Below are positions 9,945 to 14,231 of a stretch of 64,000 nt of DNA, piece after piece. Position numbers and translations under genes: made by a program. This DNA is from Polaribacter sp. (lineage in GTDB: Bacteria > Bacteroidota > Bacteroidia > Flavobacteriales > Flavobacteriaceae), in assembly GCA_029250685.1 (NCBI GenBank), contig JAQXEU010000003.1:1-64000 (forward strand), given 5' to 3'. Position 1 is the stretch's first letter; each line of letters begins with the position of its first letter. A model generated the notes under the pieces. That model was given only the letters and a program-made list of their open reading frames with translations, did not search any database and was not told the DNA's origin.

Positions 9945-9976
9945 AAAAAAGCGTTGCCTCGGCAACGCTTTTTTTA
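9945..9976 (+). terminator. Intrinsic terminator
   Basis: The hairpin AAAGCGTTGCC / GGCAACGCTTT has a minimal TC loop and is followed by a T run. It closes the transcript of the cyclophilin-FKBP gene. Confidence 0.9.
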
Positions 9977-10004: not shown

Positions 10005-11126
10005 ATGAATTATAAAACACTCCTTTCAATTATTACTATTAGCTTCTTTTATAATTCGCTTTTTTCTCAAGAGCATCAAATGTTTACGAATGGTAGGTTA
10101 ATTTTAGGAACCTATAAAGAGAGAACTGCATCTGTATCAAGTGCTGATATTGATGGAGATGGAGATCATGATATTCTTGTTGCAAATGGAAGACATTGGC
10201 CAGGACAAAATAGAATCTTCATCAATAATGGAAGAGGAATTTTTACTGTTGAAAAAAATCTTGGGTTAAATAAATCAACAACGTATGCAACTGAAATTGC
10301 TGATTTGGATAATGATGGAGATTTAGATATTGCTGTTGGTAATGATATGGCGCCAAATTATATATTTTTAAATGATGGAAAAGGAAACTTCACAAGGGGT
10401 ACTGCTTTCGGAGAAAATTATGCTCCCACTAGAAATTTAACTTTAACAGATTTAGATAAAGATGGAGATGTTGATATATTAATTATCAATCGAGGAAAAA
10501 CGAATCAAATATGTTTAAATAACGGAGATGGAACTTTTACAAAAACAATTAATTTTGGATCTCAGAAAGATTCAACAATTGATGTAGAAGTCGCTGACAT
10601 GGATAATGACAATGATTTAGATTTAATTTTAGCCAATAGAGATTTGCAACAAAATTATGTGTATTTGAATAATGGAAATTTAGAATTTAAAGATAAAATT
10701 CCGTTTGGAACAGGCAAAGACAATACACGCTCTTTAAATGTTGCAGACATCAATAAAGATGGAATTCTAGATATTATTACTGCAAATATTAGCGAACAAA
10801 ATGTTATTTATTTTGGTAGTAAGAGAAAAGATTTTTCTACAGCTTTAGTTTTCGACACTAGTTTAATGAATAGTTACTCTTTATCAACTGCAGATATTGA
10901 TTCTGATAATGATATTGATATTATTGTTGGAAATTATGGGAAACCAAATGTAATTTTCTATAATTCGAATAAAGGACAAAATTGGACAAGAAAACAGTTA
11001 TCAAAAGAGGGATTGAATACGTATGATATTATTACTTCAGACATTAATAATGATGGACTAATCGATATTATTGAAGCCAATTCAGATGGAATTAATCGAT
11101 ATTATCTTAATAGAATAAAAAAATAA
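10005..11126 (+). CDS. FG-GAP/VCBS repeat protein
   Basis: A 373-residue secreted protein with a signal peptide (ITISFFYNSLFSQ) and about six FG-GAP-like repeats. Each carries a calcium-binding DxDxDGD-type loop (ADIDGDGDHDILVANG, ADLDNDGDLDIAVGN, TDLDKDGDVDILIIN, and others). Such repeats form an integrin-like beta-propeller involved in adhesion or binding outside the cell. No C-terminal type IX secretion tail is seen. It is followed 18 bases later by the MBL-M28 fusion gene, probably in one transcript. Confidence 0.85.
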   Translation: MNYKTLLSIITISFFYNSLFSQEHQMFTNGRLILGTYKERTASVSSADIDGDGDHDILVANGRHWPGQNRIFINNGRGIFTVEKNLGLNKSTTYATEIADLDNDGDLDIAVGNDMAPNYIFLNDGKGNFTRGTAFGENYAPTRNLTLTDLDKDGDVDILIINRGKTNQICLNNGDGTFTKTINFGSQKDSTIDVEVADMDNDNDLDLILANRDLQQNYVYLNNGNLEFKDKIPFGTGKDNTRSLNVADINKDGILDIITANISEQNVIYFGSKRKDFSTALVFDTSLMNSYSLSTADIDSDNDIDIIVGNYGKPNVIFYNSNKGQNWTRKQLSKEGLNTYDIITSDINNDGLIDIIEANSDGINRYYLNRIKK

Positions 11127-11144
11127 CACACAAATCAACTTTCA

Positions 11145-12908
11145 ATGAAAATCTTTTATTCAAAATTAAAAGCACTCGTTCTTATTGCTCTTGTAATGCT
11201 TTCTTTTACAGCAAAAGCTCAAAATAGTTCGCTAAAATTAAAATATTTAGGAACAGCAGGTTGGGAAATATTTGACGGAAACGTTAGAGTTTTAATTGAC
11301 CCATACATTTCAAGAGTTAAATTAGGAACAGGGCCAAGCATTAGCCCAAATGACAAAAGAAAAACCGTTAACAGAAATGATTATTTTGTATCCGACACCA
11401 AAACTATTGATGAAGTTATCACTAAAAAAATAGATTTTATTTTAGTGCATCATTCTCATTTTGATCATTTAGCAGATGTTCCTTATATCGCAAAAAAAAC
11501 TGGAGCAAAAATTATAGGAACTGAAACAACTTGTAATATTTTAAGAGCATATGGAATTCCAAACAAACAATTATATCCTGTAAAAGGTGGTGAAGATTAT
11601 CAGTTTGAAAATTTCTCTGTAAAAGTAATTCCGACGATACATTCTGCATTAAATAATAAAAATTACATCGACAACAGAGTTTACTCAACAGTTCCTAAAG
11701 CTCCTTTAAAAGTTTCAGAATTTATAGAAGGTGGTTCGTTAATGTTTTTAGCAAGGTTTAAAAACAAAGATGTTTTAACGATGGGTTCAATGAATTTTGT
11801 AGAAAGAGAATTAGTTGGACAAAAACCAGATATTTTATTAGCTGGAGTTAATAGGTCTCAATTAGGTCTTTATAAATACAACGAACGCTTATTAGCTGTA
11901 ACAAATTACCCTAAAATATTGATTCCAACTCATTGGGATAATTTTAGATTACCATATGGTTTTTCTCAACAAAAAGGAGTTGATCAAAAATTAAAACCTT
12001 TTGTAGAGGATATGAAAAAGGTATCACCAGAAACAAAAGTAATCATTCCTAAACATCTAGGAACAATTACAATTTATGATACCAAAGAGCAAATACTACA
12101 GAATGAACAAAAAGAAATTCTTGCTGGCTTAACAGGTAAAAATAGTATTAAAAAAAACAAACCGATTAACGATAGGTACAGCAAAAAAAACAGAACAATT
12201 GCTCGTAATTTCTTAGGTGATTGGATTCAAAAACTAAAATTAAATCTTGAAGAGCACTCTTATAAAATAGACATTACAAGAAAACGTGAAACAAAAAATT
12301 ATGAAGGCAAAAACATTTATACGGTAATTCCTTCTACAATCGAAAGTGATGAATATATAATTATTGGTGCGCATTTTGACTCGGTAAGAAACTCTCCTGG
12401 CGCTAACGATAACGCAACAGGTTGTGGGTTGGTTTATGGTGTTGCAAAACAAATTGCAAATTTAAAAAATAGAACGAAAAATGTATTGGTTGTTTATTTT
12501 GATCAAGAAGAATTAGGACTTGTTGGTAGCCAAGCTTTTACTAAATTCATCAAAGAGAAGAAATTGAACATACATTCTGTTCACACTGTTGATCAAATGG
12601 GTTGGGATAATGATAAAGACAGAAATATTGAAATTGAAATTCCTACACCTTTTTTAAAATCAATTTATCAAAAATACGCAAAGCAATTAGGCATTTCTGC
12701 TTTTGTAACACCCGAAGCTGGTTCAGATCATAGAGCCTTTAGAAGTGAAGGTTTTAATGCCGTTGGGATTACTGAAGAATACAGAAATAAAGACACAACA
12801 CCACATTACCATAAAAATACAGATACGTATGAAACTATTAATTTTGAATATTTATCTTTTTCAACAAGTTTAGTCTACAATGTAATCAAAGAGCTAATCA
12901 GTAAATAA
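11145..12908 (+). CDS. Metallo-beta-lactamase fold / M28 peptidase fusion
   Basis: A 587-residue exported protein (signal peptide ending AKAQ, about residue 26) that joins two metallohydrolases. The N-terminal MBL-fold domain (about 30-330) has the metal motif HHSHFDH at 102-108, a later HSALNN, and THWDNFR. The C-terminal half (about 345-587) is an M28-type aminopeptidase with zinc-ligand motifs AHFDS (~409), GANDNATG (~420), DQEELGLVGS (~455), DQMGWD and SDHRAF (~528). Both active sites look intact. The fusion suggests sequential action on a peptide-containing substrate, but the substrate is unknown. It ends 6 bases before nhaA. Confidence 0.85.
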   Translation: MKIFYSKLKALVLIALVMLSFTAKAQNSSLKLKYLGTAGWEIFDGNVRVLIDPYISRVKLGTGPSISPNDKRKTVNRNDYFVSDTKTIDEVITKKIDFILVHHSHFDHLADVPYIAKKTGAKIIGTETTCNILRAYGIPNKQLYPVKGGEDYQFENFSVKVIPTIHSALNNKNYIDNRVYSTVPKAPLKVSEFIEGGSLMFLARFKNKDVLTMGSMNFVERELVGQKPDILLAGVNRSQLGLYKYNERLLAVTNYPKILIPTHWDNFRLPYGFSQQKGVDQKLKPFVEDMKKVSPETKVIIPKHLGTITIYDTKEQILQNEQKEILAGLTGKNSIKKNKPINDRYSKKNRTIARNFLGDWIQKLKLNLEEHSYKIDITRKRETKNYEGKNIYTVIPSTIESDEYIIIGAHFDSVRNSPGANDNATGCGLVYGVAKQIANLKNRTKNVLVVYFDQEELGLVGSQAFTKFIKEKKLNIHSVHTVDQMGWDNDKDRNIEIEIPTPFLKSIYQKYAKQLGISAFVTPEAGSDHRAFRSEGFNAVGITEEYRNKDTTPHYHKNTDTYETINFEYLSFSTSLVYNVIKELISK

Positions 12909-12914
12909 AAAATT

Positions 12915-14231
12915 ATGATTAAAAAAGTATTTCTTACACCGTTTCAAAAATTCGTTAAAATTGAAAGCTTTAGTGGAATTTTATTAATGATTACAACACT
13001 TATTGCATTGATTTGGGCAAATTCTCCTTACGGAGAAAGTTATGTGTCTATTTGGCAATATAAAATTGGTTTTACTACGGATGCGTTTGAATTAAATAAA
13101 CCGTTAATCTTATGGATTAATGATGGTTTTATGGCTGTTTTCTTTTTCCTAATCGGATTAGAAATAAAACGCGAATTATTAATAGGTGAATTAAACTCTG
13201 TAAAGAAAATTGCTTTTCCCCTTTTTGGTGCTTTAGGTGGAATGTTAGTTCCTGTTTTGTTTTTTATCTTTTTAAATCAAAATCCAGAAACCTTTAAAGG
13301 TTGGGGAATTCCGATGGCAACAGATATTGCTTTTTCGTTAGCGATTTTAAAATTATTAGGAAATAGAGTTCCGTTAAGTCTGAAAATATTTTTAACTGCA
13401 TTTGCTATAGTAGATGATATTGGAGCTGTTTTGGTAATTGCCGTTTTTTATAGTGGAAGTTTAAATTTGATGATGCTTTTATCTGCAGTATTATTATTAG
13501 CTGTTTTGTATTACCTTTCTTTTAAAGGTTTTTACTCTAAGTTTTTATTGGTTTCATTCGGAATAATCGTTTGGGTATTATTTTTAAAATCTGGAATTCA
13601 TCCAACTGTAGCAGGAATTTTATTAGCATTTTCTGTTCCGATTAGACAAAAAATAGACACCTCTACTTTTATAGATAATTTAGTAAGCATCACAGAGAGA
13701 ATAAAACAATCTGCTGTTTTAGACAAGCCTATTTTATCTAAAGAACAAATTGAAGAGATTGACGACTTAGAAGATTGGACTAATAAATACCAATCTCCTT
13801 TACAACATTTAGAACATAAGTTACATGGATGGGTTGCCTATTTTATCATTCCAATTTTTGCATTAGCAAATGCAGGTGTACTAATTTCTAGCGATGTAAA
13901 ACTAGATACTGCTTTGATCCAAAATATTGTAATCTGTTTAGTTTTAGGAAATAGTGTCGGTATTTCATCAATTGTGTTCATTGCTAAGAAGCTAAAATTA
14001 GTAGAGATTCCTGAAGATATTAATAATCAACAAATTATTGGCGTTTCATTTTTAGCAGGAATCGGTTTTACCATGGCAATTTTCATTGCAAGTTTAGCTT
14101 TTGAAAACAGTCCGATGTACATAGATTCAGCTAAAGTTGGAATTTTAATTGGCTCATTAATTTCTGCTGTAATTGGATATTTAATTTTACGTTTTAACAA
14201 AAAAAAGAAATCTATAACAACTGATAATTAA
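12915..14231 (+). CDS. nhaA: Na+/H+ antiporter NhaA
   Basis: A 438-residue inner-membrane antiporter exchanging Na+ for protons. Signature segments are GFMAVFFFLIGLEIKREL, PMATDIAFSLAIL and AIVDDIGAVLVIAVFY; the paired aspartates are the cation site. The late GIGFTMAIFIASLAF helix also fits. It is longer than E. coli NhaA because of a hydrophilic insertion of about 50 residues (around 255-300), common in Bacteroidota homologues. A sodium-extruding antiporter fits a marine lifestyle. Confidence 0.95.
   Translation: MIKKVFLTPFQKFVKIESFSGILLMITTLIALIWANSPYGESYVSIWQYKIGFTTDAFELNKPLILWINDGFMAVFFFLIGLEIKRELLIGELNSVKKIAFPLFGALGGMLVPVLFFIFLNQNPETFKGWGIPMATDIAFSLAILKLLGNRVPLSLKIFLTAFAIVDDIGAVLVIAVFYSGSLNLMMLLSAVLLLAVLYYLSFKGFYSKFLLVSFGIIVWVLFLKSGIHPTVAGILLAFSVPIRQKIDTSTFIDNLVSITERIKQSAVLDKPILSKEQIEEIDDLEDWTNKYQSPLQHLEHKLHGWVAYFIIPIFALANAGVLISSDVKLDTALIQNIVICLVLGNSVGISSIVFIAKKLKLVEIPEDINNQQIIGVSFLAGIGFTMAIFIASLAFENSPMYIDSAKVGILIGSLISAVIGYLILRFNKKKKSITTDN

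Follow-up and report, generated by a model that had tools for sequence, protein, structure and literature searches.

At the centre of the locus lies a single open reading frame, which runs uninterrupted from an ATG at 11145 to a stop codon ending at 12908 and encodes 587 aa with a signal-peptide-like stretch at the N terminus. Positions refer to the window, i.e. the whole stretch of 64,000 nucleotides of DNA from a marine Flavobacteriaceae genome (Polaribacter sp.) that was analysed. The product joins a metallo-beta-lactamase (MBL) domain to an M28 aminopeptidase domain, and the following features were assigned:

9945..9974, forward strand: terminator-like hairpin that follows the gene of an upstream peptidyl-prolyl isomerase, with a 13-pair stem and a T tail (consensus match only)
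10005..11126, forward strand: gene of an exported FG-GAP repeat protein of 373 aa, the conserved partner of the MBL gene (Pfam FG-GAP_3)
11145..12908, forward strand: MBL::M28 fusion gene, 587 aa
11145..11219, forward strand: predicted signal peptide of the MBL half, residues 1-25 (ending in ...FTAKA and followed by Q), as read from the sequence
11232..12071, forward strand: MBL-fold domain, residues 30-309 (Pfam Lactamase_B_3; UPF0173 structures by phmmer and Foldseek)
11448..11468, forward strand: HHSHFDH metal motif, residues 102-108, with H103, H105, D107 and H108 family-invariant
11787..11789, forward strand: Ser215, where the metal-bridging Asp would sit; invariant in the family and, in an alignment, opposite the D in the GDT of a UPF0173 protein
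12072..12086, forward strand: fusion junction, residues 310-314, where the MBL relatives stop and the similarity to the M28 protein of genome G278 starts
12087..12905, forward strand: M28 aminopeptidase domain, residues 315-587, the whole mature part without a signal peptide of its own
12915..14231, forward strand: NhaA Na+/H+ antiporter gene, 6 bp 3' of the fusion

Pfam Lactamase_B_3 (PF13483) matched residues 31-181 with E 5.6e-9 and 36.6 bits against a curated cut-off of 24, and Peptidase_M28 (PF04389) matched residues 390-571 with E 7.6e-31 and 107.8 bits (curated cut-off 21.3). An AlphaFold2 model of the 587-aa protein, for which window and locus proteins were aligned as input, led to two confident domains (mean pLDDT 84, pTM 0.68). 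The MBL part ends with a strand at 307-310 and the M28 side begins with a helix at 313-330, indicating that there is no linker between them. The best Foldseek hits with this model had E 2.8e-16 among M28 aminopeptidases and E 2.4e-13 among UPF0173 MBL folds. Reading frame, Pfam, AlphaFold2 and Foldseek thus bear out the first-pass annotation, which had described an MBL fold and an M28 peptidase in one secreted protein. The signal peptide of the MBL half is predicted to be the sole remaining export signal, through which the whole fusion would be exported.

The MBL half contains the HxHxDH motif of the MBL superfamily (H103-H105-D107-H108), and these residues are, together with H166 and H263, invariant across its family. 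It shares its fold with UPF0173 proteins (TM_1162, Igni18, 7e3v) and UlaG-type MBL folds, with Foldseek E values of about 1e-13 to 1e-12 for TM_1162, 7e3w and Igni18, and like UPF0173 it has, besides the motif, the third His (H166) and the last His (H263 in xxHWDxF / xxHYDTF). In contrast to UPF0173, it is exported and about 80 residues longer, and an invariant Ser takes the place of the bridging Asp. The metal ligands of UPF0173-type enzymes are five His and two Asp (PMC7846560), a set that is incomplete here, as the bridging Asp is Ser215. Around this residue the family reads GSMN/ASMN where UPF0173 has GDT; as the C-terminal half was placed wrongly by a global hhalign alignment, the Ser/Asp match is based on a MAFFT alignment and on the model, in which a strand ends at 212. 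Against the UPF0173 family NF001911 the MBL half scored 61.9 bits, far below the cut-off of 144. The site is reminiscent of subclass B3 metallo-beta-lactamases, which have a Ser at position 221, where B1 enzymes have Cys221. In B1 enzymes the ligands are HHH/DCH, and in B3 enzymes Zn2 is bound by Asp120, His121 and His263 (PMC10318434); the MBL half presents the B3 set HHH/DHH, with H103, H105 and H166 / D107, H108 and H263, and with Ser215 instead of a Cys221. Nevertheless, its nearest folds by Foldseek are UPF0173 and not B3 enzymes, and as the score against the subclass B3 family NF033105 is far below the cut-off (20 versus 240 bits), the likeness to B3 is a resemblance of the site and not membership.

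In the M28 half, all metal ligands and the general base are kept (H410, D422, E455/E456, D483 and H529), as in the known M28 cocatalytic zinc aminopeptidases (Streptomyces griseus, Aeromonas/Vibrio, BSAP, Legionella LapA), with which it shares the fold at target-length TM-scores of 0.56-0.79 (Foldseek) and from which it differs by being fused N-terminally to an MBL domain and by having no signal peptide of its own. Its function would be that of a common aminopeptidase that helps to scavenge peptides. Of the two metallohydrolase sites previously called intact, the M28 site is therefore complete, whereas in the MBL site the bridging Asp found in the nearest structural relatives is missing. In the M28 orthologues of L053 and L056 the last metal-binding His is replaced (SDN and TDF versus SDH), and judging from these sequences some free-standing members may be inactive. 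Genome G000 (2.2 Mb) gave 15 M28 matches, which seemed many for its size.

The 373-aa protein encoded upstream of the fusion has seven FG-GAP_3 repeats (Pfam E 1.4e-57). Its orthologues were found in the vicinity of the MBL gene in 20 of 37 loci; almost all of them immediately precede it on the same strand, in most cases with a gap of less than 30 bp, so that the earlier hunch that this protein belongs to the function is well supported for the MBL part. RidA genes were found near the MBL gene in 10 and amidohydrolase genes in six of the 37 loci. The setting suggests that small amides or peptides are broken down in the periplasm, where the MBL part with its B3-type ligands would hydrolyse an amide-, lactam- or ester-like bond; nothing was found that points to a lactone, an antibiotic or a signalling molecule, as had been guessed for the substrate. 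A RidA-like gene directly upstream of the MBL gene was observed in L042, L076-L078, L025, L027, L032 and L033; those that were read carry a signal peptide, and some are preceded by an amidohydrolase gene. The richest MBL neighbourhood seen is that of Arenibacter (L038, 2-9717), with an M19 dipeptidase, two amidohydrolases, FG-GAP, MBL and a creatininase. In a Bacteroidetes MAG (L031, 4292-5731) a RidA (YjgF) domain is fused to the exported MBL; this appears to be a second, independent fusion, and the family thus appears to have undergone at least two fusions.

A survey of 168 genomes of the genus (E 1e-30) led to six matches, one of them fused, four with the MBL alone (G286, G199, G200 and G241; 60-80% identity, with 80% in G286) and one with the M28 alone (G278). 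The MBL::M28 fusion was absent from 35 MBL loci in public genomes; MBL reading frames whose end is present are free-standing with about 302-360 aa, the exception being the 479 aa of L031, where the RidA domain precedes the MBL, and in nearly all loci examined the MBL half corresponds to a free-standing exported protein of ~310 aa. Orthologues of the M28 half occur in 15 other genomes among 400 Flavobacteriaceae, all as free-standing frames of 296-326 aa, and in all other Flavobacteriaceae examined this half is a free-standing exported protein of ~300 aa. No second MBL::M28 fusion was found in the genus, the public-genome loci or the 400 Flavobacteriaceae, and the searches of order and class genomes scored few candidates per genome, so that their low counts are weak negatives. 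Literature searches revealed neither an MBL-M28 fusion nor a unit of FG-GAP, RidA, amidohydrolase and MBL. The combination of domains is unusual, as already suspected, with one case in 168 genus genomes and no other in the wider samples, and as far as sampled the fusion seems confined to one lineage.

The closest separate parts come from the same genus. The free-standing MBL of G286 (L009) and the free-standing M28 of G278 (L079) are 80% and 78% identical to the respective halves of the fusion (77-78% for the M28 half), and unlike the halves of the fusion each is a gene of its own with its own signal peptide. The first-pass annotation had named such separate genes in close relatives as a point against a true fusion, and this is largely what was found; the fused protein itself stands. 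Relatives of the MBL end at residues 310-313 (window numbering), and the similarity to the M28 of G278 starts at ~315, directly after the signal peptide of the latter (MKLLKISLLLTFSLAIAVCQ). The joint is in frame and connects the end of the mature MBL with the start of the mature M28, both being whole within a few residues. Window, G286 and G278 have in common a variable slot, flanked by RF3/PPI on one side and by a sulfatase/TPR pair on the other, which contains FG-GAP, MBL::M28, NhaA, S51 and a second M28 in the window, NhaA, S51, FG-GAP, MBL and a Xaa-Pro-dipeptidase-like amidohydrolase in G286, and the M28 alone with two small genes in G278. The halves of the fusion therefore match occupants of one slot. 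MBL and M28 side by side were seen in no relative; from the shared slot, we infer that they adjoined in an ancestor. The hairpin at 9945..9974 is likely the 5' border of the unit.

Comparison with the nearest relatives gave dN 0.13 and dS 1.69 for the M28 half and dN 0.13 and dS 1.46 for the MBL half, and thus a dN/dS of about 0.08-0.09 for both, which is approximate due to the high dS. Branch-specific changes in window versus sister amounted to 4 versus 5 in the M28 half and 10 versus 13 in the MBL half; these counts are small, and like dN/dS they span the time before as well as after the fusion. The composition is continuous, with GC3 values of 0.16 and 0.21 for the two halves. Neither half decays visibly, and from their sequences both look functional.

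We consider it likely that a small deletion joined the MBL gene, itself preceded by the FG-GAP gene, to a neighbouring M28 gene downstream and resulted in one periplasmic chain with two complete and independent metallohydrolases. An exported MBL gene, with FG-GAP upstream, would have adjoined the M28 aminopeptidase gene, and in the lineage of the window genome the deletion would have taken out the MBL stop codon together with the M28 signal peptide. Tethering of the two independently folded enzymes would then ensure that they are exported together and in a fixed stoichiometry, and would not create a new coupled reaction. The fusion looks genuine and recent and is probably functional; it combines two known kinds of exported hydrolase. 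A lost stop codon alone, without a deletion, was rejected as the full explanation, since it would not account for the loss of the M28 signal peptide and of any DNA between the genes. Separate internal translation of the M28 half was also rejected, as no in-frame ATG could be read near the joint and the product would be without an export signal. Likewise rejected was the horizontal arrival of a ready-made fusion, as no other fusion was found and the divergence of both halves from the related species is similar to that of accessory genes in the neighbourhood.

The initial idea that two sites in tandem point to the coupled hydrolysis of a single conjugate is possible but unsupported, and we regard it as unlikely. 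The MBL would open or cleave a conjugate (lactone, amide or lactam), the M28 would remove the freed amino acid, and the fusion would have been selected for channelling. The family-invariant residues kept in both domains are consistent with such a function, as are the Xaa-Pro-dipeptidase-like gene that takes the same position downstream of the MBL gene in G286, the amidohydrolases, creatininase and M19 dipeptidase among the MBL neighbours elsewhere, and the one other fusion of the MBL family, with RidA. However, the MBL::M28 fusion was found once, and its halves occur as separate genes in different genomes among those cross-checked, as the genomes with this MBL are without this M28. Alternatively, the M28 half may be a dispensable passenger heading for loss and the fusion neutral, as recent fusions often are; M28 proteins of this type are indeed rare in the genus (2 of 168), but as every catalytic residue is kept and the window branch is without an excess of changes, we think this quite unlikely. 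The main open risk to the fusion claim is its origin from a single draft genome, an assembly of 61 contigs, with no second example found, so that the two genes might be separate in the real genome and joined by an assembly or sequencing artefact. This appears very improbable for a joint that is in frame and leaves both mature domains whole, for halves that match slot occupants in close relatives, and for a composition that is continuous across them.

With the likely deletion between neighbouring genes, the locus documents a clean, recent gene fusion, both separate parts of which are visible in related species of the genus. By itself this alters no biological picture, and the two parts belong to known kinds. 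The locus also draws attention to an uncharacterised family of exported MBL proteins, which share 57-82% identity across Bacteroidota and Proteobacteria-labelled MAGs, have FG-GAP as a conserved partner and differ in their active site from the closest structural relatives. A more far-reaching and rather doubtful idea is that the exported MBL with its B3-type site stands at the heart of an undescribed unit for periplasmic catabolism, which would move laterally and comprise an FG-GAP propeller, RidA and an amidohydrolase or peptidase, and in which the M28 and RidA fusions would reflect a repeated tethering of successive steps. NhaA is thought to be a neighbour and not part of the function of the fusion. 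In the close relative G286 (L080, 12892-14208) the NhaA gene is split into two frames of 70 and 366 aa, which is either a pseudogene or a sequencing error.
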